In this document: piece after piece, positions 6,917-24,826 of the stretch
How positions within the stretch are numbered: position 1 is the stretch's first letter
How the letters are laid out: every line of letters begins with the position of its first letter
Virus record (IMG/VR): IMGVR_UViG_3300027963_000295
Span: 1 to 25,959 of that record
Reading direction: 5' to 3' (one strand)
Source of the DNA: a virus
DNA length: 25,959 nt
Notes under the pieces: generated by a model
Seen by the model: the letters and a program-made list of their open reading frames with translations, nothing else
The model's database searches: none
Told to the model about the DNA's origin: nothing
Position numbers and translations under genes: made by a program

Positions 6917-7468
6917 TTATTCCGGTTTTTTAAATCTTTCATACCTTTCTCTAGTTAAAAAGTATTCAGGTAAATGCCCAATCTTAATTATAGCATCTGA
7001 TGCTGCAATATAAACTTCCGAAGCTTCTTCAACAGTTAGGTAAGATCCTAAGTATCTGTTAACCCCTAAGTAAGATATTTGAGCCTTGTACCTTTTTATC
7101 CCAATAGCAGTTTTAGTTACACCAGTAGGCAATTCCCTATTCCTACTAATATAAGTTAAGGCACTATTGCGTCGGTGGGTAATGATTTCTAAATTGTCTA
7201 GTCTATTGTTTTGTTTGTTCTGATCAATGTGGTTCACTGTGATTAAACCTCTTTTTGGAATGTGATCTAGAAATACTATACTCATAAGATGATGTACGTA
7301 AACCGTTTTCCTCTTTTCTTTTGCCGAAATATTAACTGCTGGATAATTTGAAATTAGAAACGGCTTAAGTATGATTCTGGTTTTTAAGTTTCTAACCTCA
7401 GCATACTCGTTAATAGTGTAGTTACTTTCTGGAATTTGAATAAATTTCTTGCTTAGTTTTTTTTCCAT
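6917..7468 (-). CDS. HNH homing endonuclease with AP2 DNA-binding domain
   Basis: 183 residues from the ATG at 7466-7468. I prefer this over the upstream TTG at 7525, which would overlap the promoter candidate and terminator. The HNH core is at about residues 58-102: VHHLMSIVFL, then VNHIDQNKQNNRLDNLEI (His80, Asn92) and THRRNSA (His98). An AP2-like domain follows at about 114-160 (TGVTKTAIGIKRYKAQISYL through EEASEVYIAASDA). This HNH-AP2 arrangement is typical of free-standing phage homing endonucleases, which cut DNA site-specifically to spread themselves. It is the first gene after the promoter candidate at 7496-7526. The catalytic His and Asn are present, so it is probably active. Confidence 0.88.
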   Translation of the reverse strand: MEKKLSKKFIQIPESNYTINEYAEVRNLKTRIILKPFLISNYPAVNISAKEKRKTVYVHHLMSIVFLDHIPKRGLITVNHIDQNKQNNRLDNLEIITHRRNSALTYISRNRELPTGVTKTAIGIKRYKAQISYLGVNRYLGSYLTVEEASEVYIAASDAIIKIGHLPEYFLTRERYERFKKPE

Positions 7469-7495
7469 TGTGTATCGTTTATTGTTATATATCAT

Positions 7496-7526
7496 CGAAG
7501 ATATAAAGGTTTCACGATTCCACAAA
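7496..7526 (-). promoter_or_regulatory. Bacteroidota-type promoter candidate upstream of the HNH gene
   Basis: Read on the minus strand, TTTG (7523-7526) is followed after 19 bases by TATCTTCG (7496-7503), a one-mismatch form of TAnnTTTG. The expected start of transcription is near 7490, about 22 bases before the HNH ATG. The element starts inside the T-run of the preceding terminator, so termination and re-initiation would be back to back. Confidence 0.42.
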
Positions 7527-10309: not shown

Positions 10310-13300
10310 TTATACGTTTCTGCCTAATGTTGTTTGGTATGTTGTTATTGCATTATAGTAAGCAGTTCTTTCTCCTGCATCTAGATATGATCCTACACTA
10401 TATGAACGTGCCTCATTAGGATTATAATAAGGAATGATATCATTTGTTTGACCATAAGTATACATTGCTAATATAGCTTGTCCACAGTTCGCACCAAGTT
10501 GTTGTTGTGTACTAGTATCTGTTTGTATGACAGAGTTCTGTACATAACCAATTTCTGATGATATACTCGGGCCTTCTATATACATGAATCCCTCCATTGC
10601 ATTTTGTCCTCCGCTGTAAATCAAACCAGAATAAATTCCATTAGTTGTAGCAGAAAATGCAGTATTTTGACCATTGCCCATTCCGTGTATAAAATAGGTT
10701 CCCCCAAGATCAAAACCACCATTAAGGTTACCTGATGATGAACTGTAGTATTTCTGATAACTTGACCAATGGGCATCTCCTGGTTGGGATTTAACTAATT
10801 GGTCAACTTTCCATAAACTCCTAACTGCAGCATCAGTTCCATTTCCTTTAATACCGGTTGAACTAAATACTGGTGTTCCTACGTAATCCCAATCATAAGT
10901 AGCATTAGAAGGCTCAACTAAATTTATTTTAGAACTAGCTGCCGTATTACCTAATATAGGTAAGAAAATATCAAACTTACTATAAATTCCTGCTGCTTTA
11001 AAATCTAATGTAAGTTGATTAACAGCACTTTGCTCTGTTGCAGTTAATGTTCCTCCTACAGTAATTACTTGATTTATGTATGCTGCTGCATCTGGATCAA
11101 GACCTGTTGGACCAGGTGCTGGTGCAGTAGCTCCAGTAGCTCCACCACCAACTAAGTCTCCTGAAAGATACCAAGTGTTAGCGCTTGCTTTAACTAGATT
11201 TGCTACTGAAAAATCTGAAGCAAGTACTGTATAACTATTAGCAGAGTTTAATGTTACTGCTGTTCCGCCAGCTGCTACTTGAACTGAAGAATATCCATCT
11301 CTAGCAATGTATAAACTGGATCCAAGTGGTAAATTAGCAACAGAATCTGCTGGTACAGTTACTGTTAATCTATAAGTTGAATCTGCAACAAAGAATTTAC
11401 CTGAATCCGAAACTGCTAGTGTGTAGTCTCCTGTTAAACCAGTAGGTGTTAATCCTCCGCCTCCAGTAGCTCCTGCGGGTCCAGTAGATCCGTTAACCCC
11501 TGATGTTCCTGATGTTCCTGAGGTACCTGAAGTTCCGCTGTTTCCTGAACTACCTGATGTTCCACTAGTACCTGAGGTTCCGCTGGTTCCTGAAGTTCCA
11601 CTGGTTCCGCTGTTTCCTGAACTACCTGATGTTCCACTAGTACCTGATGTTCCACTAGTACCTGATGTACCACTGGTTCCTGATGTACCACTGGTTCCAC
11701 TAACTCCACTGCTTCCGCTAGTTCCTGAAGTTCCTGATGGCGTTGATACTACAATTAGTAATATCGGATCATTATTTGAAAAAGAATGTGTAGAAGTATT
11801 TAAAGTTACCCCATACGTCCAATATGTAGAATTATCAGTCTTACTTGTAATTGTCCAAGTTTGAAAATTTACATGACTTGTTTTATCCTGGATAGTGATA
11901 ACACTTCCAATTGCAAGATTACTTAGAAAAAGATCAATATTGGTATTACCTTGTTCTAATTCAGAAACGTTAAGAGAGGTAGCAGATGCCTGAGTAGCAT
12001 TATCCCAAATAATATGTCCTGATCCAGGATCTCCTGATTGGCTGTTAGTTTTTGCTTGGTAGTTAAATAGCGAGTTTGAAGCTCCATCTACCCCTGAGGT
12101 TCCCGAAGATCCGTATGCGGGTCCTGTTGCTCCGTTTACTCCAGAAGTACCTGAGGTACCTGAAGTACCTGATGTTCCAGATATTCCTGAACTACCTGAA
12201 GATCCATCTTGACCAGGTACACTAGTTTCTCCTACTGCTATACATTGAACGTATCCAGTAGCATAATCATTAGGATTAGAATTATCAAGTTGGATTGCTA
12301 GATAATATCTAAATCCAGAATTTGTTTTATTAGTGATATAAGCTCCTATACCAGCAGAAAAATCTCCTAAAGATATTGATCCCCCAGTTGTCCCTGCAAT
12401 ACTTGGACTAAAAGTTGTTTGAACATCTATGCTATAATTTGAAGTATTAAACGGTACAGCAAATGTAAAATCTTTATAAGAATTAGAATTATAAGGCCCA
12501 GGGGCTGTAATATAAGTCCAAGGATCGGTTGAAGTATTAAAAGGAATAACTTTAGTAGTTAATCCAAGACCAGTTCCAGTAGCCCCATTAATTCCCGAGG
12601 TTCCTGATGTTCCACTAGTTCCTGATGTACCGCTGGTTCCTGAGGTTCCTGATGTTCCACTAGTTCCTGATGTACCACTAGTTCCTGATGTACCGCTGAT
12701 GCCTGATGTTCCACTGGTTCCTGATGTTCCACTGGTTCCTGATGTACCGCTGGTGCCTGATGTTCCACTGGTTCCATTAACCCCTGAAGTTCCAGAGCTG
12801 CCTGATGTCCCACTAGTTCCTGAAGATCCCGCAGGAGAAAACATAACTGTTACGAAATCATCTAAATTTAGAGTCCCTGCTCTTGTAAGGGCTGTAACTG
12901 TCATAGCTACAGAACTAGAAACAAATGTAGGAGTTGCTGTAACTTGAAAAACCCCTATTTTATTATCTTGGGTTGGGCTTGCTCCTTTAAAAATTGTAAT
13001 TACAGAACCTTCATAGCATTTAGATAGTATCTCCCCTATGTTTATTCCATTTGGAGGAACTGTATAAGGGAACCAGGAAAAATTCAAAGCAGTTGGTGAT
13101 CCTGCCCATCCGGTATTTGTTTTGAAATATCCAGAAGTGGGAGCAGTTGCTGTATTTGTATTTGTATCGAATTTATAAATAAATCCTTGGTTTGTTCCAG
13201 TTGCCCCTATTGCTCCGCTGGTTCCACTAGTTCCTGATGTTCCGCTGGTTCCTGAAGTACCACTAGTTCCTGAAGTACCACTAGTTCCTGATGTTCCATT

Positions 13301-14092
13301 TGATCCTGATGTTCCAGAGCTTCCATTAATTCCACTAGTACCTGAAGTACCATTTATTCCACTAGATCCTGAACTACCATTAGTTCCCGTAGCACCTTGT
13401 TGAACATAGAATGCTGGTAAAACTGAAACTGAAATTGAACTAGTTGCTGGTTTATTAGGTAAAGTTCCTGCTGCTTGGAAAAGCGCACGCATTGTTGTAT
13501 CAGTTGAACTCCAATATATCTGATAGTAATCCCCAGTGTTTGCATTAACCTGATAGGTTAAGGTAACTGCTTGAATTGCTCCAGCGCCACTTAATGTTGT
13601 TAACTTATTAGATCCAACTACATTAACCCCATTTTTACTTAGCCAAACTTGAACAACGTCATCACCTGGTGAAGTTTTATAGAATTGTATATTAGCTTGT
13701 AGATTGAATGTAAGGCTCGCTGCTACGTTTATTTTAGAATTATCTGTAATAGTCACTCCGTAACTTCCTACTGTCGTATTGAGCGTAAAAGCATTAGCAG
13801 CGGACGGACTAGCATTAGTCTGTGTGGTAGTATCAAAGAAAATACCGTAGAAACCTTGAGCTCCACCAGGTCCTGTAGCTCCTGTTGCTCCACCTCCAGT
13901 AAGTCCTGGAATTCCAGTAACGTTACCGGTAAAATTTACAGTGGTATCAGATACCTGAAAAGGCATCGGATTACCGAAACCATCTGTGACAGTTTGTAAA
14001 GTATCTCCGGCAACCCCAGAAAGCCCTTGTGAACCTACATTAAGGATCCCACCATAAGTGTTTTGTATTCTTTTACCGGTTAAATCAGCCAT
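10310..14092 (-). CDS. Collagen-like tail fibre / receptor-binding protein
   Basis: 1260 residues. The N-terminus (1-70, [18 protein letters not shown]) looks like a virion-attachment segment. Residues about 80-232 form a C1q/TNF-like jelly roll ([39 protein letters not shown]). Four Gly-Thr-Ser collagen-like blocks follow at about 233-298, 422-507, 627-671 and 786-877, separated by globular modules. The modules at about 301-421 and 673-785 appear related (both contain GSVITI and end before a Gly-x-x block). The last 260 residues ([20 protein letters not shown] onward) resemble the C-terminal, probably glycan-binding, domain of Bacteroidota phage fibres. The protein probably trimerises and binds the host surface. 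It follows the 186-residue virion gene by 38 bases. Confidence 0.88.
11462..11737 (-). repeat. Collagen-like repeat block 4 (Gly-Thr-Ser)
   Basis: About 30 tandem Gly-x-x triplets, mostly GTS with a few GSS, GNS and GVN. At the DNA level it is a near-perfect nine-base periodicity with alternating synonymous codons, and a GTS run flanked by GSSGNS appears twice, suggesting internal duplication. Confidence 0.92.
12080..12214 (-). repeat. Collagen-like repeat block 3
   Basis: The shortest and least regular Gly-x-x block (about 15 triplets), interrupted by NGATGPAYG. It separates the fourth and fifth globular segments of the fibre. Confidence 0.85.
12572..12829 (-). repeat. Collagen-like repeat block 2
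   Basis: About 28 Gly-x-x triplets, nearly all GTS, with single GVN, GIS and GIN interruptions. Neighbouring nine-base units are almost identical, so copy number could change by slippage or recombination without breaking the frame. Confidence 0.92.
13199..13396 (-). repeat. Collagen-like repeat block 1
   Basis: About 22 Gly-x-x triplets after the C1q-like domain. The first third is varied (GSS, GIN, GSN) and the rest is uniform GTS, ending in GAIGATG. Confidence 0.92.
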
Positions 14093-15390: not shown

Positions 15391-16272
15391 TTATGCTCCA
15401 GGTGAGTAAACGAATTCAGAAGCGATTATACCGATACCCATTGAGAATTCAGAAATCATTCTGATCTCTTGGTTATCACGTGACCACCAACCTTGGATTC
15501 TTTCAGTGTCATCAACTAGACCGCATACTACGATCATGTGTTTAGCTGGTCCGCAGTATACTTTTGGACTAGAACCTAAACCTCCAACTGGAATGGCTCT
15601 TACGTTAGTTCCAGGAATGATGATTGATTGACCTAAACCAGCACCAGTTGTTTGACCAGTGTTGTAGTGGAATAAGTTTTTAGACACGATGTCAGTTTGT
15701 AAGTAACGGAAAGTAGCGTAACTCATTAACATAATTAAATCGTCTCTTGAAGCAACTGCCAAAGGAAGTGCGTCGATAGTAGCAATAGCTTTATTGTAAG
15801 AGTTAGCTGATGTCCAAGCTCCACCAGTTCCAGCGTTTGCGCCGTTTGCAGTAGTTAATTGGCTGATGATTTGAGTTCCTAAGATGCTTTCAGCATATTT
15901 TCTAGTCTCTTGAATCATTTGATCAGCGATTTGCTGTTCGAAAGGAAGTCTCTCACCGTATGCAGAAGCATCCAATTGAGTTGACAACCAGTAGTCGTTA
16001 AGCTCGTTTAAGCAAAGTGACTGTTTCCAGCTATATTTTGAGTTGTCTACAGAAATCTGTGTAAAGTTAGTAGAACCAGCTGAAGTCCAGCCGCATGCAG
16101 CAGCTTCAAAACCAGCAGTCATTCCTAATACGTTAACAGAAACTGTTGCAGAAGCATATCCTGGACGTACGTCACAGTATTGCATAAGGTCAGCACCTAA
16201 TACTGCCTTTTGGATTAAAATACCTGAATCTTCTAGATTAAAGGTACTAAGGGTTGATAAATTAAATCCCAT
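15391..16272 (-). CDS. Major capsid protein (HK97-like, Bacteroidota type)
   Basis: 293 residues. The main shell protein. It has a helical start (LEDSGILIQKAVLGADL), an early E-loop-like segment (FTQISVDNSKYSWKQSLCLN), a long helix (EQQIADQMIQETRKYAESIL, the probable spine helix), and a C-terminal P/A-domain run with LIMLMSYATFRYLQ, IPGTNVRAIPVGGLG and RIQGWWSRDNQEIRM. This layout fits capsid proteins of Bacteroidota phages, and the preceding scaffold and XkdF-like head genes confirm the context. Its A-rich leader (16273-16296) suggests strong translation. It is followed by a stem-loop rather than by connectors. Confidence 0.9.
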   Translation of the reverse strand: MGFNLSTLSTFNLEDSGILIQKAVLGADLMQYCDVRPGYASATVSVNVLGMTAGFEAAACGWTSAGSTNFTQISVDNSKYSWKQSLCLNELNDYWLSTQLDASAYGERLPFEQQIADQMIQETRKYAESILGTQIISQLTTANGANAGTGGAWTSANSYNKAIATIDALPLAVASRDDLIMLMSYATFRYLQTDIVSKNLFHYNTGQTTGAGLGQSIIIPGTNVRAIPVGGLGSSPKVYCGPAKHMIVVCGLVDDTERIQGWWSRDNQEIRMISEFSMGIGIIASEFVYSPGA

Positions 16273-16296
16273 GATTATTGTTTTTTATTTTTTTTA
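16273..16296 (-). promoter_or_regulatory. A-rich translation leader of the major capsid gene
   Basis: On the minus strand the ATG is preceded by AAAAAAAATAAAAAACAATA followed by ATC, with no purine-rich GGAG site. It is almost the same word as in the tail tube leader. Confidence 0.5.
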
Positions 16297-16302
16297 GTTT
16301 AA

Positions 16303-16887
16303 TTATGATTTTATAAAGAAACCTTCGTTCTTTAAGTTAGTCATTGTTGCAATTCTAGCATCTAATGCATCGTTATTAGAAGCAAATTCTCCTCTAGTTA
16401 CTTTAGGAGCTTTTTCAGCACCTGCAGTTTTAGAGAATTTCTCATACTTAGATTCCATTTCTGCCATTTTAGCTTTCATTGAAGTCATTTCAGTAGCAAT
16501 TTCTTCTAAAGCCATAACGACTTTCTTCATTACTTCATTTACTGCTGCTTCTTTTTTAGCTATTTCTTCTGGAGTTTCTGAGGCTGGGATCGTGTCTTCT
16601 GCTGCTGCTTCCACTTCTACTTCCACCGGTGGGGCTTGTTCTTCAGCTTTAGTTTCTACAGAGATGATCTTGCCTTCAGCATCAACCTCTACTTTTAGAC
16701 CTGATTCTGTTTCGTGGGTGCCAAGTGGCGCCGGAGATTTGGTTCCATCTTCTGCTATTACAAATAGCGGAAAGCCTGGCGCAAACTCTTCAGCTTCTAC
16801 TGCGGTTCCGTCGATCAGTTTGTCAGATGCTAATTTAACCTCAAGTCCTAATATGACTTTGATTTGGTTTAGTTTTTCTTTAAACAT
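16303..16887 (-). CDS. Capsid scaffolding / assembly protein
   Basis: 194 residues, acidic. Residues 1-78 form a small domain (KLNQIKVILGLEVKLASDKL), 80-106 is a Glu/Pro/Val linker, and about 106-153 is a predicted coiled coil (EIAKKEAAVNEVMKKVVMAL and MKAKMAEMESKYEKF). The short C-terminus ends in KNEGFFIKS. A coiled coil with a small end domain, immediately before the capsid gene, is the classic scaffold arrangement. The protein would guide shell assembly and then be removed, perhaps by the protease-like protein encoded upstream. It is separated from that gene by 76 bases with a recurrent ATATTTA element. Confidence 0.8.
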   Translation of the reverse strand: MFKEKLNQIKVILGLEVKLASDKLIDGTAVEAEEFAPGFPLFVIAEDGTKSPAPLGTHETESGLKVEVDAEGKIISVETKAEEQAPPVEVEVEAAAEDTIPASETPEEIAKKEAAVNEVMKKVVMALEEIATEMTSMKAKMAEMESKYEKFSKTAGAEKAPKVTRGEFASNNDALDARIATMTNLKNEGFFIKS

Positions 16888-16913
16888 ACTTTTTTATTTA
16901 TTTTTACTTTTTG
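16888..16913 (-). promoter_or_regulatory. A-rich translation leader of the scaffold gene
   Basis: The bases before the ATG are CAAAAAGTAAAAATAAATAA then AAAAGT on the minus strand, again without a Shine-Dalgarno site. It is the least regular of the three A-rich leaders, and an ATATTTA element lies 20 bases further upstream. Confidence 0.45.
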
Positions 16914-16963
16914 AAAATTGGGCGATTGCTACTAAATATAGAAATATACGGAGATGACATATC

Positions 16964-18610
16964 TTAAAGAGTCTTAACAAGATTAATTAGATCGCTGTAC
17001 ATTTTACGATCTTTCATGTAAGCTTCGTACTCGTTCTTGTCTAGGAAATCCCCTTGAATGCTTAACCCTTTTAACTCTCCTGACTTAACCTTAGCCCATG
17101 TCTCTAGGTTAGTTACCCTCATTTTAACACACCAAGCCCCGATAGGAGCATCCAGTTCGTAAACCGAATTAGCCTTATCCTCAGCTGTTTCTACGATCCA
17201 AGATTCAAACACATAAGCTCCAGCATTGGCGGTGTCTACGTGCTGAATGTTTGTATCTGCTAATCTTTGCTCTCTCATGTATTTCTCTGCTATCTTAGCA
17301 ATAACTTCTTTAGAAAATCTAACAAAGTAAATGTTACCATCTTTATCTTTTCTAGGAATCTCCATATCGGGCACCATAGCAATAGCAACTATCTCTTTCT
17401 TATCCTCATCAGCAAATAGTATCTTAGCAAATCCGTAAGTTCCTACAGTTCTATCCTCAGCCAATTCTACATTTTTAAGAATGCTATCAGCTTTACGACC
17501 AACATATTTTCCTGAAGCTTCCCATTTACCATCTAATTCTTCGTAGATCTCGATAATGTAACCAGGATCTTCTTCAGTACCTTGTATTTCAAAATCTACA
17601 CCAGGTACTTTTTTAGCTCCTTTTACAATTTCTGTGATTCGTCCTCTAGGATTCTTATCTGCTGTTTTCCAACTAACCGCATCGCCAACTGAAAGTTCGT
17701 CAACAGATGCGAAAGACATTTCTAATGCTGTTAAAGCTTTATCTAAATCTGCATGTGATGCTCCAGGCATATAGATAAATCCGTTATCTGTTGCGTGAGA
17801 ATGTATCTCTCCTTTGAGTCCTAGTTCTTCAGATCTTTTTACTGCTTCCTCAATTGTTGGGTATGATTCTGCTGCAAATTCTTCACCTAGAACTGCTTTT
17901 CTTTTTAACGGGCCAGATTGGTTTGTGTAAGGTGCAAGTCCACCAGTATCTATACCGAATTTTTCTCCTATTCCGAATAATGAAGCAACTACACTTGGAT
18001 TATTGTCAATATGCTTACTAATATTAAGTTCTTTTACCTTTTCAATTTTAGCTTTATTACTTCCTGTTGCAAATACTCTATCAAGTGGAATTCGCATTTC
18101 ATTAGCATATTTAAAAATATCTGCTCCTGGTGTTGATCTAGCAGTGATAATATAAAGTTCATCACCACGTTTCTTATGCTCTTCAAACAATTTCTTACCT
18201 CTAGTAGTGGAAAGTGTATCATCCCAATCAAAACTTACTTTAGCAAAATCCATTTGGTTATCATAACCACATTCGTGACAAACATAAACATCTTGACCAC
18301 CATCTACTACATCCCATGAATGACCACACACATCGCAAGTTATAGTATTATTAACTAATGCCATGTTCTGGTAAGTTGAAATACAGATAGCAACTGCTTG
18401 ATCTGAATCTTTACCCTCGCCAACTAAAACTGGTACACATCTACCTAAATATTCATCTTGTGATTCTCCACTCTTAGGCTCAACAAATTCTTCAGCTTTA
18501 AAGTACATAAAGTTCTTTTCGATAGCTGGTGAATCCACTAGTGCTATAGCATCTACTCCAGATCCTTCAAGATCGTCTATGATTTCTAAATCAATTATTC
18601 TTTTTTCCAT
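16964..18610 (-). CDS. XkdF-like head maturation protein with zinc-ribbon, HAD and Tudor-like inserts
   Basis: 548 residues, a mosaic. Residues 15-40 (ALVDSPAIEKNFMYFKAE) and about 384-525 (TYGFAKILFADEDK, then AIAMVPDMEIPR, NIQHVDTANAGAYVFESWIV and GELKGLSIQGDF) match XkdF/prohead-protease-like proteins; His457 and Ser470 are candidate catalytic residues. Between them lie residues 47-82 (DEYLGRCVPVLVGEGKDSDQ, seen in other phage head proteins), a zinc ribbon (Cys92, Cys95, Cys111, Cys114), a HAD-type module (FDWDDTL with Asp128, Asp130 and Thr132, IITARS at 154-159, IDNNP at 201-205), a short HSHATDNGFIYMPGASH segment, and a Tudor-like domain (about 300-381, SVGDAVSWKT). The gene sits before scaffold and capsid, the right place for a maturation protease. 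The inserts are an unusual addition; their role is unknown. Confidence 0.82.
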   Translation of the reverse strand: MEKRIIDLEIIDDLEGSGVDAIALVDSPAIEKNFMYFKAEEFVEPKSGESQDEYLGRCVPVLVGEGKDSDQAVAICISTYQNMALVNNTITCDVCGHSWDVVDGGQDVYVCHECGYDNQMDFAKVSFDWDDTLSTTRGKKLFEEHKKRGDELYIITARSTPGADIFKYANEMRIPLDRVFATGSNKAKIEKVKELNISKHIDNNPSVVASLFGIGEKFGIDTGGLAPYTNQSGPLKRKAVLGEEFAAESYPTIEEAVKRSEELGLKGEIHSHATDNGFIYMPGASHADLDKALTALEMSFASVDELSVGDAVSWKTADKNPRGRITEIVKGAKKVPGVDFEIQGTEEDPGYIIEIYEELDGKWEASGKYVGRKADSILKNVELAEDRTVGTYGFAKILFADEDKKEIVAIAMVPDMEIPRKDKDGNIYFVRFSKEVIAKIAEKYMREQRLADTNIQHVDTANAGAYVFESWIVETAEDKANSVYELDAPIGAWCVKMRVTNLETWAKVKSGELKGLSIQGDFLDKNEYEAYMKDRKMYSDLINLVKTL

Positions 18611-18627
18611 GTTATTAAATATGTTTT

Positions 18628-21354
18628 TTATAGTCTTGCTATATCTTCCAGACGTTTATTAGCCTCTTGTTGGCTAGTCATATCTGAAGCTACCACGTAA
18701 GTTTTAATGATAGGTGTTGATGCTGCAATGTTTTGTTCTCCCGTTACACTTAGATTATTAGGTGCTCCTGAACCTTTACCCATTCCGTTTATCTTTTCTA
18801 ACATAGGTAGGAAAGCTTCGGTAGCAGAACGATTAACCACATATTCCCCACCTTCTAGTTGCCCGTATGGGGTATTAATTCCGCCTTCTGAATGTTTACG
18901 TCCAGTAAGCAAACCTCCTTGTGCAAACTTAGATCCTGAACTTCCTCCTGAATCACTTTGGTTTAAATATGAATTAGGATCTTTAGGTGGAGTTCCACTA
19001 AAACTAGTTTTTTGAATTATTGATACTTGAGCATAACCAGATACTACAGCTGCTGCAGCTGCTATGGCTCCAAGTATAGGACCTACAACCGGAATACCTG
19101 CTAAAGAGGTAAATGCTTGAACACCTCCTTGAATTGTAGAAATAATAGCTTGTGCAATTTGTAATTTTTTACCATTTTCAAAAGCATCTTTAGCTAAATT
19201 ATATTCTCCTAAAGCTTTATTGTATTCTGCTTTTTGAACTGCTTTATTATAATCATCTCGTATTTTTTTCTTTTCAGCATCAGTAGTTCCTTCAATTGCT
19301 ATAGCTGCTTCAGCATTAGCAGTTAAAACAGCCATTTCATCCTCTGAAGCTTTTTTAAGTGCTTCACTGTCTTCTAGATTACTAAGTTTCTGTAAGTCTG
19401 AAGCAGCATTTAAAACAGTTTGTATTGTTGCAAGTATACCATTTATCTGTTCTATAGCAATTTTATTTTTTTCTAAGAACAGATCTCCCCAAGATTTCTC
19501 GTCTTTTTTATACAGTTTATCTAGATCCTCTACTAATTGTCTAGTTAATTCTACTGTACTTAAACCTAAATCTTGTCTAATTTTTATTTTTTGTTTAATA
19601 GCATCAATCTCAATATTCAATAAACTGTTTTCCAAATCTTTCTGGGCAGCTAATCTTTCTTCTGCTGTAGATTTTTCATCTCCTAAAACTAATTGGGATT
19701 TATTGAATGCAGCTAATTTATCAGCTTCAAAAGATTGATCTATTGCATCAGCTTGTAGTTGGTAACGTTCTTCAATAGCTTTCTTTTCAGCATCTAAAAG
19801 ATCTTTAGCTAACTGAGTTCTCATCATTTTGATTTTCTCGTCCCTAGCTTTCTCTAATTCTTCTATTTTAACAGTATCTCCTTTTGCTGCTTCTATTAAT
19901 TTAGCGTACTTATCTTCTTCAGCTTTTATCTCAGCTTCACCTTTTTGCTGCGTAGTAACTACTAAAGCATCTGCAATTTCTTTAGCTAACTTTTTATCTT
20001 TCTCTGCTTGTTTATCATCGATATCATTTTGTTTTAACCTAATGGCTTCTTTAGTATCGAATATTTCTGTTTCTAAATTCTCACCATATTGTTTAAACTG
20101 AGAATTGTATTTTTCTTCTATTACTAACTTATCCGAAAGAAGTTGTTTTTCCTGGGCAAGTCCATCTTCCCCAGCAATCTTAGCATCATCTACAAGTTTT
20201 TGATTCTTTTGTCTAGATGCTTCGATTTCTTTATCATATCTTTCTTTTAATTTCTTTTGAGCTTCATCAGCAGCAGCATCAGCATCTTTTCCTTTTTTTG
20301 TTTCAATCTCCGCTGTTAAAAAATATAAATCATTTTCTGTTTTTGCTAGATCATCTGCATAAACTTTTATTCTTGCATTTGATTCGTCTATATCTTTTTG
20401 GCTTACTACTAAAGCATCTTTAACAATATTAACCCCTTCTTTTGTTAGAGTTCCAGCATTTTTATTAGCTAATTTTTTATTATTCTCACTAACCTTTTCG
20501 GCTGCTTTCTGAACTTCTTCAGGTAAATATTTTTCAAAGAATGTAGCTATCTTACCGCCTTCATCGAAAAATCCACTGTTAAGAATATCAGCAAAGTTTT
20601 TCTTAACCTGTAATGAAGCTTGTTCAGTAATAATAGCTTGTTGTAAAGCTTGTTTTTTTAATTCAATATTAATCTGATATTGCTTTATCTTGTATTCATT
20701 AATCTCTTGTTCAGATAGACCTTGTCTTTTTAAAGTTCTTTCTGTCTCATCTAAAGTTTTTAGATTTTCATCACTTTTCTTTACCTGCTTAGCAAGCTCT
20801 TCATTTAACTTTTTCTGTTCTTTAGAAACTCCGGTTACAGCTTCTTTAATATCATCCCAATAAACTACGATTGTACCTAAAGCAATTACAAGTAAACCTA
20901 TACCTGTAGATCCTATACCAGCTTTAATAGCTTTAAAGGCATCAACAGCAACTTTTTTCATGTTGCCAAAAGCATTACCTAAATCTTCTAAAGCAGTTAA
21001 CCCTTGGGTTAAAGCCATAGCCCCTTGTACCTTTTGGAAAGTCTTTTCGAAATCCTTAGCATCTCCACCCGCTAAACTAATAGCACCTTGCAATGCAGTG
21101 AATCCACCAGATAAAGCTGTTAGCCCCTTAGTCACTGCCTGGAATTTACCAGCACCAGTTAAAGCATTTACAGAATCATTAGCATCGTCGAACTTATCTT
21201 TTAAGTCAGCTGCTTTTTGTGCTGCTGCATTAATAGCTGCTGGCGTGGAATTTATATCAGCTAATAATTTCTGATACTCTACCTGGGCTTCTTTAATCTG
21301 GGCTTTTAGGGTTTGAAAGCCCGTTACCTCAATGTCTATATTTTCGTCTGCCAT
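18628..21354 (-). CDS. Tape measure protein
   Basis: 908 residues, predominantly helical. It sets tail length and may help DNA enter the cell. The first half has long charged coiled-coil stretches and a hydrophobic helix at about 148-165 (GSTGIGLLVIALGTIVVY). A second hydrophobic region lies at about 735-783 (GIPVVGPILGAIAAAAAVVS). The C-terminal region (from about 810) has GGLLTGRKHSEGGINTPYG and GGEYVVNR, a motif common at the end of tape measure proteins. By the usual 0.15 nm per residue the tail would be at most about 135 nm. It follows the large tail protein by 31 bases and is followed by the XkdF-like head gene rather than by Dit. Confidence 0.92.
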   Translation of the reverse strand: MADENIDIEVTGFQTLKAQIKEAQVEYQKLLADINSTPAAINAAAQKAADLKDKFDDANDSVNALTGAGKFQAVTKGLTALSGGFTALQGAISLAGGDAKDFEKTFQKVQGAMALTQGLTALEDLGNAFGNMKKVAVDAFKAIKAGIGSTGIGLLVIALGTIVVYWDDIKEAVTGVSKEQKKLNEELAKQVKKSDENLKTLDETERTLKRQGLSEQEINEYKIKQYQINIELKKQALQQAIITEQASLQVKKNFADILNSGFFDEGGKIATFFEKYLPEEVQKAAEKVSENNKKLANKNAGTLTKEGVNIVKDALVVSQKDIDESNARIKVYADDLAKTENDLYFLTAEIETKKGKDADAAADEAQKKLKERYDKEIEASRQKNQKLVDDAKIAGEDGLAQEKQLLSDKLVIEEKYNSQFKQYGENLETEIFDTKEAIRLKQNDIDDKQAEKDKKLAKEIADALVVTTQQKGEAEIKAEEDKYAKLIEAAKGDTVKIEELEKARDEKIKMMRTQLAKDLLDAEKKAIEERYQLQADAIDQSFEADKLAAFNKSQLVLGDEKSTAEERLAAQKDLENSLLNIEIDAIKQKIKIRQDLGLSTVELTRQLVEDLDKLYKKDEKSWGDLFLEKNKIAIEQINGILATIQTVLNAASDLQKLSNLEDSEALKKASEDEMAVLTANAEAAIAIEGTTDAEKKKIRDDYNKAVQKAEYNKALGEYNLAKDAFENGKKLQIAQAIISTIQGGVQAFTSLAGIPVVGPILGAIAAAAAVVSGYAQVSIIQKTSFSGTPPKDPNSYLNQSDSGGSSGSKFAQGGLLTGRKHSEGGINTPYGQLEGGEYVVNRSATEAFLPMLEKINGMGKGSGAPNNLSVTGEQNIAASTPIIKTYVVASDMTSQQEANKRLEDIARL

Positions 21355-21385
21355 TTGTGTTGTTTATTTTAAATATAATTTGTCG

Positions 21386-24300
21386 TTAACTGAAGCTGAA
21401 TGAAACTGTTATGTCGTAATTTTCTACCGGGGTTAGTCCTTGTAATAAATAAACTTTTCCTGGCGATATTGGAATCTTTTGGAAATCTGTAACAATTCCT
21501 CTTTGAGAATATTGATATACCAATGTTACTTCAGCATCAACAACTAAATCAACTGCTATAAAGTTATTTGGATTATAGTCAATCGCGTGGGTCTCTACCC
21601 AATCAATCCCTGTATAAACCTGTTGATCAATATGAAGATAAGTACGAGGGTCTGGAAGGGTGTAGTATCTAAAGGTTGCTGTTAGATTTGCATGTGTGTC
21701 ACTAACAGCTTGAAAATTTATAGTATTAGTTCTATCAATAGGTGTTAGATCTGCACAATTTAATGTTGATCCAGAAGCTGTTGCTCCCACATAGTACTTA
21801 ACAAATTCTCCGTCTGATACAAATCCAGTTGCTCCCGCTTGTCCTTTTGATCCAATAGGAACTTCTGAGTTAACATCATAATAAAATGTAGAGGAATCAA
21901 CGAATGCCGGATCGCTAATGTAGAAAGTTTCATATGATTGATCTCCAGTATTACTACAAGCTCCTGCTGCTGTTCCGTAAATAATTCCTGCTCCAGAATC
22001 TACACTAGCAGATCTAGCAAGTACATCCTGATTAGGGTTATATCCACAGTTACAGCCAGTGCAATTACCAAAAGAAGTAATAGTTGTACCATTAGCTCCT
22101 ACCCTACATTGTGCACTTGCATTCTTGTAGTATCTATTTGGGATAAGTGTAGTAGTTCCAGTATTGTTTCCGTATAGTACAGTACAAGCTGCTAATGTAG
22201 GTTGATCCCCGTATATTGTTTGTGAGTAACTAACACAGCAACAAGCAGTACAGAAAGTATCTGAAGCACAAACCGAAATAGCATATAATGTACCTACACA
22301 TGCACATCCTGATCCAGTTCCTATTGCTATGAGAACACCAAATTCATTAACCTGCATAGTGTAATTACCGTCATAGTACCAACCGGCAGAAGCTGGAATA
22401 GATCCTGAAGGATTCCCATAGATAAATTGGGAATCATACATCCTTTTATTATTACCATAAACAGTAAATTTATTTATACCTCTACAGCAATATGCATCAC
22501 ATTGTGTAAGGCCAAAACAAATATTTGTAAATTCTGATAACACAGTTCCCGTAATTGTAGTTGGTCCCGTGGCTCCTATAGAAACTCCTATATTACCTAA
22601 CCTTACTAATTCAACTTTTACGTTCTGTTTAGTTCCTAGTACGTAATCAGTTATTTTTGTTACCGTCCACCAACTATCTTTAACCATTACAATGTCATTA
22701 AAGTTGATGTTATAAACGTCACTAGAATCTAAAGCAAATGTAGCTTCCATGATTCTTGAATAAGGACTGTAAGTTGAATCAAACCAAGCTTCCCAATACT
22801 TAACATAGGTTGTGTTAGTTGTTCTACCAGCAAATCCTGTAGCGCCTGATCCACCTGCTGCTGGATAAATGTTGTTCAGTGGATTCCAAAACTGGGGATT
22901 GTTAGTCCAGTTAAGATCGTATGATGCCTGATCGAAAGGGTAAATGTTAAACTGAGATATTAAGGGGTATGATGTTTGCTGTACAGAAGCTCCAGTAGTC
23001 CCTGGCGAATTTCTAAGGTACCAATTTAATCCAGGAGGAACTTGTTGGATACCATTATAGAAAACTAACCTAGGCTTAACTTGCATAGGTTGTCTTTGCG
23101 TCTCTGTGTCTTTAGCAAAGTGCGGGATTAAGAATCCACCGGTACCAGCAATAGGTGCTAAAGGAACTGGAGCAAATATAGAAGTGATTATTCTATCTCC
23201 AGTTATAAGTTCGATATTAGAATCCTGGTTAAGCTGGCCAAATACTTGTTTATTCTGTTGCTGGAAACTGAAATTAAACACATCAGCTTCTTCAGAATCT
23301 TTAAATATAACTCTACGTGGTTGAGTATAGAAAAGTGGTTTTACAGTAACGTCTAATTCTTCATTAAGTTTATCCGTCCAATCTAATTGTTCACCCTGTT
23401 TAATCCAATCAACCCAAGGTTCTATCTTAAAGTTTTTTACATTCTCTTTATCCGGTTGCCACATCAACTTAAATCTGTCATTGATTCCTTTTATGAAATC
23501 AATTTGTTTATATTGTGTTGGCATTAAACCCTGAGGTATAACTACTTCTGGTCCTGTAAATGTTATAGATCCAGTTTGAAACATTAAAAAAGTGAATTGA
23601 AAAATCGAAACATACACATAAAATTCTAAGGTATCCCCTTGTGTGTAGTTACCACTGAAGTCAAAATCATACACTGGACTGAATCCAGGAATAGGATATT
23701 GAGATGTTGCGTATCTGGTGTCTGTAAAATTTCCTAGTGATTCTAAATAACCAGTTCTACTAACTATCTGTACCCCATTTTTATTCATTGCATAACTAAA
23801 AGTTTTATAGTTACCTGGAGAAGCACCAGGAGCAAAAGTCATTTGTAGTCTCGATTTAATACTATAATAACCAGTAAAAGGAACTGTGTAAGTACTTGTT
23901 ACTGGATTATAAGAATTAGTAGTATCTAAACTTTCATTGCTAGCAACTATTTTAGTGAATTGGGAAAACGGTAATGTGTTTGGTCCTGAATTAGGAATTC
24001 CCACAATAGCGAGTGGTTTAGAAACTAATTCTGCACTAGATGTTGCAACATCAGTTGAAACCATATACAGATTTTTAAAGAACATGCTATCTAAAAATTG
24101 GGATTCATAAGTGTATCCCGCATCATCAAAAATAGCATCCCATATTCTCTTAGCCCTAACTATAGGTTTAAATTGGCTTAACGCTAATGGGTAGGCTGAA
24201 TTAGTAAACCCTTTCATTGAACCTCCTGTAGTTCCTGTATACACAGATAACGTGGATTGTTGTGGTTGGTCATCATCTCCATAAGTATAACCCCATTCGG

Positions 24301-24826
24301 CTAATGGATAAACAACATCACCATTTAGCAAACCTCCGGTTGAACCCGGTCCGGCATTCCAAGATAGTCTAATGTTATCGTACGTAAAGTTGTGACCAAG
24401 ATCATTTAGATTTATTTCACTCATGTTCTTTGGAGCAACTATAGAAGCAAATGTAGAAGTCTCGCCCATGAATATAATCTCGTATTCCACTTTAGATCTT
24501 TCACCGTTAGTGTAGATAGCAGTTAACCTAATGTTACCCCCAACGAAGTAAGAGTTATTAATATTTATATAGGCATCAGCTTTCTGAGTTGCATCAAAAT
24601 CAGTGCTGTTAACATTAAACACAGCTTTGAAGTACTGACCGTTACCGCTATTAGCAGGAACACGAAATGTTCTAGTAAAATTAGAAGTTGTTGCTGTGGG
24701 TTCTTCTATCGACTGTATGGATTTATTGAACTTAATTGGTTCATCATCATACATATCGATTTCTCGATAAGATGAATATCCAGTAGTTCCATCCTGTATC
24801 TGTGCGTATAGCGATATAGCGTCCAT
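21386..24826 (-). CDS. Large tail tip / baseplate protein with cysteine-rich repeats
   Basis: 1146 residues. The N-terminal part (IKFNKSIQSIEEPTATTSNF, then TRTFRVPANSGN) resembles tail hub or baseplate proteins of Bacteroidota phages that begin with a seat for the tail tube; residues to about 760 are beta-rich. Residues 770-1024 hold all 18 cysteines of the protein. Two repeats of about 70 residues (776-843 and 859-927) align with identical spacing between their two YG motifs and the YY pair, and a more degenerate third follows. The last 120 residues form another beta domain. The A of the start codon is also the last base of the preceding stop (TAATG). It is the probable tail-tip structural protein, possibly carrying receptor-binding surfaces. 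Confidence 0.82.
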   Translation of the reverse strand: MDAISLYAQIQDGTTGYSSYREIDMYDDEPIKFNKSIQSIEEPTATTSNFTRTFRVPANSGNGQYFKAVFNVNSTDFDATQKADAYININNSYFVGGNIRLTAIYTNGERSKVEYEIIFMGETSTFASIVAPKNMSEINLNDLGHNFTYDNIRLSWNAGPGSTGGLLNGDVVYPLAEWGYTYGDDDQPQQSTLSVYTGTTGGSMKGFTNSAYPLALSQFKPIVRAKRIWDAIFDDAGYTYESQFLDSMFFKNLYMVSTDVATSSAELVSKPLAIVGIPNSGPNTLPFSQFTKIVASNESLDTTNSYNPVTSTYTVPFTGYYSIKSRLQMTFAPGASPGNYKTFSYAMNKNGVQIVSRTGYLESLGNFTDTRYATSQYPIPGFSPVYDFDFSGNYTQGDTLEFYVYVSIFQFTFLMFQTGSITFTGPEVVIPQGLMPTQYKQIDFIKGINDRFKLMWQPDKENVKNFKIEPWVDWIKQGEQLDWTDKLNEELDVTVKPLFYTQPRRVIFKDSEEADVFNFSFQQQNKQVFGQLNQDSNIELITGDRIITSIFAPVPLAPIAGTGGFLIPHFAKDTETQRQPMQVKPRLVFYNGIQQVPPGLNWYLRNSPGTTGASVQQTSYPLISQFNIYPFDQASYDLNWTNNPQFWNPLNNIYPAAGGSGATGFAGRTTNTTYVKYWEAWFDSTYSPYSRIMEATFALDSSDVYNINFNDIVMVKDSWWTVTKITDYVLGTKQNVKVELVRLGNIGVSIGATGPTTITGTVLSEFTNICFGLTQCDAYCCRGINKFTVYGNNKRMYDSQFIYGNPSGSIPASAGWYYDGNYTMQVNEFGVLIAIGTGSGCACVGTLYAISVCASDTFCTACCCVSYSQTIYGDQPTLAACTVLYGNNTGTTTLIPNRYYKNASAQCRVGANGTTITSFGNCTGCNCGYNPNQDVLARSASVDSGAGIIYGTAAGACSNTGDQSYETFYISDPAFVDSSTFYYDVNSEVPIGSKGQAGATGFVSDGEFVKYYVGATASGSTLNCADLTPIDRTNTINFQAVSDTHANLTATFRYYTLPDPRTYLHIDQQVYTGIDWVETHAIDYNPNNFIAVDLVVDAEVTLVYQYSQRGIVTDFQKIPISPGKVYLLQGLTPVENYDITVSFSFS
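21755..22519 (-). repeat. Cysteine-rich repeat region inside the large tail protein
   Basis: Repeat 1 spans about 22298-22501 and repeat 2 about 22046-22252. Both read C-(xx/xxx)-C-C, then YG, 13 residues, YGN, 14 residues from Tyr to YY, then a terminal C-x-C (24 or 26 residues on). A third, weaker unit lies at about 21755-22045. Outside this region the protein has no cysteine. Confidence 0.75.

Follow-up and report, generated by a model that had tools for sequence, protein, structure and literature searches.

We analysed a 25,959-base window, positions 1 to 25,959 of IMG/VR record IMGVR_UViG_3300027963_000295, which is metagenomic like most of its relatives, and focused on a single gene encoding a head maturation protease of the XkdF type whose protease domain is interrupted by a long insert of small modules. 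The gene lies at 16964-18610, where the first-pass annotation had placed it, and to that placement we add the minus strand. Its 548 codons specify a protein matched by the Pfam family Peptidase_S78_2 (XkdF, PF14550) at residues 397-520 (E = 4e-17, 62.8 bits, against a cut-off of 24) and by several head maturation protease families in PHROGs, among them phrog_3017 (E = 9e-11). The features of the gene, with model confidence given as the predicted local distance difference test (pLDDT), are the following:

16964..18610, minus strand: XkdF-type head maturation protease with an insertion bay, 548 amino acids (Pfam, PHROG, relatives)
18491..18610, minus strand: N-terminal part of the protease domain (Nseg), residues 1-40 (contiguity in 74 relatives; two predicted strands, pLDDT about 87-89)
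18359..18490, minus strand: QAVAIC module, residues 41-84, two helices and two cysteines (also elsewhere in bays and at the start of free 143-residue genes)
18251..18349, minus strand: zinc ribbon, residues 88-120, C92/C95/C111/C114 (13 profile matches, at varied bay positions)
17957..18250, minus strand: cap-less HAD module, residues 121-218 (AlphaFold, Foldseek, invariant motifs)
17888..17965, minus strand: short E element, tentative, residues 216-241, resembling a major capsid protein N-terminal arm (profile match enriched at major capsid protein N-termini)
17732..17875, minus strand: F module, residues 246-293, DUF3721-like (27 module-profile matches)
17471..17713, minus strand: Tudor-like module, residues 300-380 (Pfam Hva1_TUDOR; also in phages CRP-811 and DC31)
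16967..17434, minus strand: main part of the protease domain (PROT), residues 393-548, with invariant H457, E469, S470 and S517 (alignments; pLDDT about 93)

Relatives were collected through three scans of viral contigs, which yielded about 200 loci (designated by L-numbers) representing the best-scoring matches of pattern scans, near-copies included; one scan provided 46 loci encoding relatives of the 548-residue protein or of its modules. Module profiles were mapped on all open frames of these loci, and nearly all carriers of the insert are uncultured viruses. In 74 relatives, profile mapping shows Nseg joined directly to PROT with a gap of 0-6 residues, and residues 1-40 and 393-548 of the window protein are therefore the two halves of one protease domain. 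Compact relatives span about 190-240 residues, some with a C-terminal extension, and the remaining bay relatives, the window included, carry 133-669 residues of modules at the Nseg/PROT junction. The insert of the window protein is 350 residues long, and the bays as a whole hold 24 distinct combinations of about twelve module types.

In the model of a compact relative, confidence is low in a loop at residues 33-47, exactly at the Nseg/PROT junction. The AlphaFold model of the window protein, built from 74 aligned rows, has pLDDT values of 87-89 for residues 1-30 and below 50 in the linkers at 221-250 and 374-392. The bay would correspond to a flexible loop that follows the first two strands of the protease domain, and it holds a string of small modules that come, go and change order as whole units. 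Foldseek searches of predicted viral structures retrieved free HAD-like proteins and, from uncultured phages, proteins annotated as XkdF; no relative of the protease profile was found in bacterial genomes, and the same profile had no sequence match in the PDB. A separate clade carries its modules C-terminally, in the orders Nseg-PROT-D-F-H (L127) and Nseg-PROT-F-HAD-QAVAIC (L129). At L009 (10001-10687 and 11054-12481), L203 and L181, Nseg and module J are encoded together, with the remainder of the chain in a separate frame downstream, a layout that suggests a split gene or an intervening element.

Alignments of 11 and 49 sequences show no variation at H457, E469, S470 or S517. The first-pass annotation had drawn attention to His457 and Ser470, both of which are invariant, but Ser470 is an unlikely nucleophile, standing only 13 residues after His457; Ser517 stands 60 residues after it. 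In gp245 of SPN3US, H77, S153 and D178 align with the T4 triad, with a His-to-Ser spacing of 76 (PMC5694885). Because its distance from the histidine is closer to that of characterised prohead proteases, Ser517 is probably the better nucleophile candidate.

Direct inspection located every residue that the first-pass annotation had listed (C92, C95, C111, C114, D128, D130, T132, T156 in IITARS, D202 in IDNNP, H457 and S470) at its expected position, and the analysis supports the co-occurrence, in one chain, of a head maturation protease with a zinc ribbon, a Tudor-like module and a HAD module whose catalytic motifs are intact. The QAVAIC helices (residues 51-86) are modelled at pLDDT 81-93, and the module has no match among 50,697 phage records. 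The zinc ribbon comprises two C-x-x-C knuckles, C92/C95 and C111/C114, and may bind metal. Pfam DUF3721 matches a stretch of L132 homologous to the F module (E = 1.5e-10), and Hva1_TUDOR (PF11160) matches residues 309-354 of the window protein (E = 1.3e-5, 25.6 bits, against a gathering cut-off of 24.1). The E-element profile scores at least 5 bits at 5/80 major capsid protein N-termini, compared with 11/2152 N-termini of other open reading frames, which lends some statistical support, short of proof, to its being a copy of the capsid protein arm; such an element could tether the protein to the shell. The major capsid proteins whose N-terminal arms it resembles are those of L009, L203, L129 and L013, from the same phage group.

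Comparison of close relatives reveals that modules come and go on otherwise conserved backgrounds. The 102-residue D module differs between L137 and L016, whose flanks are 98-99% identical, and module D likewise differs between L133 and L146 (background 96-98% identical) and between L025 and L029 (94-98%); in these three pairs the gains or losses are clean and in frame, and in the first the junction DNA has the short repeat TTTGC[AT] flanking both sides. Module K differs between L131 and L170 (flanks 86-92% identical), L030 still has traces of two modules in a pattern that resembles a deletion, and L004 and L007, with Nseg 100% and PROT 95% identical, have bays that share only QAVAIC and E. 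Window and L013 share 91% identity in the Tudor module, against 54% in the protease. Between the window and its nearest relative, L002, synonymous distances are 0.19 for PROT, 0.55 for HAD and 1.0 for QAVAIC, rough estimates given the shortness of the modules, and such inequality is the expected outcome of recombination. On a quick tree of 108 non-redundant protease domains (30 architectures), some of whose long branches are unsure, the number of changes is 15 overall for module position (bay, C-terminal or none), 3 for the bay label, 8 for HAD and 20 for module D.

Since the window and most of its relatives are metagenomic, the HAD and the other modules might be accidental, functionless joins or products of assembly error. 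The many further architectures, the presence of related modules in cultured phages, and ratios of nonsynonymous to synonymous substitution (dN/dS) that stay far below 1 in HAD as in most other modules all speak against such an origin, which we regard as extremely improbable. An artefact confined to one gene was also considered and rejected, as L001 and L002, separate contigs diverged to 89% identity, have the same architecture.

The same modules recur on other head proteins. HAD is found on portal C-termini in L034 and L140, with a shorter frame in L022, and module J on those of L140, L116 and the Nonlabens phage P12024S. The D module, which was traced in loci L207-L219 (CRP-811, S-CBS1, HGTV-1, HRTV-4, HRTV-28, DSL-LC01, vibriophages and PaBG), occurs together with F in the prohead protease of HGTV-1, in the portal proteins of HRTV-4 and HRTV-28, in chains annotated as major capsid protein in Roseobacter phage CRP-811 (with Tudor) and Synechococcus phage S-CBS1, in a vibriophage protein encoded between the portal and capsid genes, and in small free genes. 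Judged by its sequence, the CRP-811 chain may be a protease-scaffold-capsid fusion. A free copy of module D also lies among the replication genes of PaBG, so the module is not exclusive to head proteins. It spans about 100 residues with conserved RAxQL and WGGDxGxxWA, and is common to head proteins of archaeal and bacterial tailed viruses. Tudor, in turn, appears in a scaffold-like protein of Limnohabitans phage DC31.

Gene context in the window matches what is expected of the family, with a scaffold and a major capsid gene beside the XkdF protease:

16303..16887, minus strand: scaffold-like protein, next gene (homologous to the C-terminal extension of the L015 protease, E = 6e-6)
15391..16272, minus strand: probable major capsid protein (weak PHROG major head protein match, E = 0.005, and gene order; N-termini aligned)

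The minus-strand order runs from tape measure through protease, scaffold-like protein, probable capsid and further structural genes to portal, with terminase much later. This arrangement (15391-24826) is unusual in that the head genes for protease, scaffold and capsid come straight after the tape measure and before portal and terminase; L221 shares the order of tape measure, protease, scaffold and capsid. Elsewhere in the window, 10310-14092 encodes a collagen-like protein of 1260 residues with long GTSGTS repeats, a probable tail fibre, and 6917-7525 is an open reading frame with NHIDQNKQNNRLDNLE, typical of phage HNH endonucleases and hence a candidate for one.

In tailed phages, the scaffold and the C-termini of portal proteins point towards the inside of the head. 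P12024S and L015 have the XkdF protease and a scaffold-like part in a single chain, the extension of the latter locus matching the scaffold-like protein of the window, and these natural fusions support an interior placement of the protease and whatever it carries. The location common to the modules would then be the procapsid interior and the packaging machinery. Because the protease acts alongside the scaffold within the procapsid, we infer that its insert would enter the interior with it, and the suggestion of the first-pass annotation that the HAD is carried into the procapsid with the protease is thereby retained as the best reading. Taken as a whole, we consider it moderately likely that the gene encodes an XkdF prohead protease with a module-holding bay, that the insert rides into the procapsid, and that HAD is one of its cargo modules, working as a phosphohydrolase in head assembly and DNA packaging.

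Evidence for the HAD module is weak at the level of sequence searches (a PHROG nucleotidase at 2e-4 over residues 140-210, Pfam HAD entries at 0.006-0.3), and the assignment is supported by structure. The prediction for residues 120-210, for which a HAD fold had been proposed, is confident, with residues 121-218 modelled at pLDDT 91-98, and Foldseek ranks HAD phosphatases first among solved structures: AphA (E = 2.4e-4), followed by the CopA P-domain, with the core of phosphoglycolate phosphatase at E = 0.04. The module is thus predicted to adopt a Rossmannoid HAD fold. Across 62-63 non-redundant copies, there is no variation at D128, D130, R158, K188, K191, D202, N203 or N204, position 156 always holds S or T, and position 132 is T in 89% and V in 6, the mean column identity of the module being 68%; this pattern exceeds what chance would give. 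Motif I (as S-x-D-x-D), motif II (S/T) and motif III (K188 or K191) are accordingly present. Of the motifs named by the first-pass annotation, I and II hold, as do the aspartates of its D-x-D-x-T signature, with its threonine slightly less constant; motif IV reads D-N-N and not D-D. Conservation of motifs I and II is not a search artefact, because the viral search patterns covered motifs III and IV and left these two out. HAD is under purifying selection, with dN/dS of 0.09-0.34 in pairs with usable synonymous distances. Because D128, D130, K188 and D202 are invariant, we deem it fairly probable that the module is an active phosphohydrolase. It would most likely be a metal-dependent enzyme acting on nucleic-acid ends or nucleotides while the head is assembled and the DNA packaged; the protease may release it at a later stage.

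Several observations weigh against this interpretation. A second acidic residue in motif IV is typical of HADs, and the invariant D202-N203-N204 offers a single acid. HAD is present in only 1/80 relatives collected by the protease alone, a frequency that depends on the way in which loci are collected, and it is therefore dispensable for protease function; the profile search proposed in the first-pass annotation reveals it as one of about a dozen interchangeable modules. As for the protease, a fold search of the compact model against the PDB returned no significant match, and a comparison of the profile with four S78-type sequences was not significant (E = 0.024, probability 2%), so that an assemblin-type fold is no more than putative for it.

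The dispensable and exchangeable nature of the modules, together with the missing second acid, would also suit a purely local role, in which the modules are spacers or adaptors through which the protease binds scaffold, portal or capsid and HAD is a non-catalytic binding domain. The two-cysteine and Tudor-like modules have the look of binding modules, and the E element is similar to the N-terminal arm of the capsid protein. A binding domain does not readily account, however, for the invariance of D128, D130, S/T156, K188 and D202 in a module of far lower average identity, nor for the existence of HAD as a free gene, and we judge this alternative distinctly unlikely.

Free HAD genes, most with an N-terminal QAVAIC, lie just upstream of terminase genes. 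The gene downstream of the free HAD encodes a terminase large subunit, assigned by PHROGs to several families, in 8/10 representatives; in L017 and L046 the terminase lies further downstream or the HAD frame is partial. Loci L036, L037, L042, L026, L021, L186, L160 and L201 have free 143-residue QAVAIC-HAD genes or HAD-only genes immediately before terminase. In bacterial genomes the HAD profile found one Bacteroidetes metagenome-assembled genome, in which a tape measure gene is followed by an insert-free protease, a free HAD gene, small genes, a scaffold-like gene and a probable capsid gene. No match to the HAD module was obtained among the 50,697 phage records, and in the collections searched it is almost confined to uncultured phages.

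The vicinity of terminase genes suggests a role in DNA packaging no less than in ejection. It tells against a scenario in which the modules are virion cargo trimmed in the head and HAD leaves the virion along with the DNA and acts inside the infected cell, for instance on signalling nucleotides or on phosphorylated ends arising from host defence. Precedents for such an effector can be cited: polyvalent proteins with C-terminal assemblin-like peptidases are known (PMC5512222), and prohead proteases of the T4 and SPN3US kind trim internal or ejection proteins. The fast turnover of the modules also resembles an arms race. Searches of Pfam and of the PADLOC defence-system library, on the other hand, gave no toxin or defence family and no convincing match among the modules, and we hold an injected effector to be unlikely.

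A broader form of the cargo interpretation would make the prohead protease a general loader, whose modules ride into the procapsid in a fixed loop, are freed by self-cleavage at [E/Q]-[K/E/H]-F-[A/V/E/I] junctions and, in the case of HAD, go on to act either at the vertex used for packaging or in the host infected next. This motif recurs at module junctions (in the window at residues 118-124, 243-248 and 298-303, for example), and the FA dipeptide, present in 98/242 junction windows, has about 13 times the frequency there that it has within modules. The motif may be a cleavage site, a recombination scar or neither; F-A is at most a candidate cleavage site, because scaffolds are hardly enriched for FA and contain it mostly within coiled-coil repeats. 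We put forward the general loader as no more than a tentative proposal.

The first-pass annotation had suggested that an enzyme packaged with the maturation protease would be a new way to deliver a virion enzyme. The principle itself is not new, since the polyvalent proteins of phages and conjugative elements, with a C-terminal assemblin-like peptidase, were described in 2017 (PMC5512222) and are the closest known concept. These also combine several unrelated domains with a peptidase in one chain, are encoded among head genes, vary in architecture and have been proposed to be packaged and processed. Their assemblin-like peptidase is limited in distribution and always C-terminal (Iyer et al. 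2017, PMC5512222), whereas here the cargo interrupts the protease domain. There is a difference in modules as well, a text search of PMC5512222 finding no phosphatase. Polyvalent proteins are defined by effector-type domains plus a peptidase; the window chain is multidomain and has a peptidase, but its modules are at most putative effectors and its layout is different. MuF or portal fusions with 2H or PBECR domains (PMC5512222) similarly place enzyme-like modules on head proteins, portals included, with other enzymes and another carrier. In T4, internal proteins and Alt enter the prohead core and are trimmed by the maturation protease gp21 (PMC9958956), but cargo and protease are separate genes, not one chain. 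The window protein resembles the XkdF family (PF14550) in its match, well above cut-off, and in its position upstream of scaffold and capsid genes; it differs from the compact members in its insert, and the PF14550 match excludes the N-terminal segment that precedes it. Ongoing shuffling of protein fragments is known from work on phage domain mosaicism (Smug et al. 2023, PMC10684548), in whose text a search finds no mention of proteases or maturation. No description of the cargo-inside-protease layout with this set of modules was found in the literature searched, most subscription papers and all preprints lying outside it.

Should the modules indeed enter the procapsid, phages would have a modular way of docking new enzymes in the head by splicing them into a single loop of their maturation protease. 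Such a mechanism would also provide a natural design for filling phage heads with proteins. The QAVAIC helices, module D, DUF3721, DUF5824 and the cap-less HAD would become testable head or packaging factors, and cultured hosts are available for several carriers (CRP-811, S-CBS1, P12024S and HGTV-1). Module D by itself connects tailed viruses of haloarchaea with cyanophages, roseophages and vibriophages.
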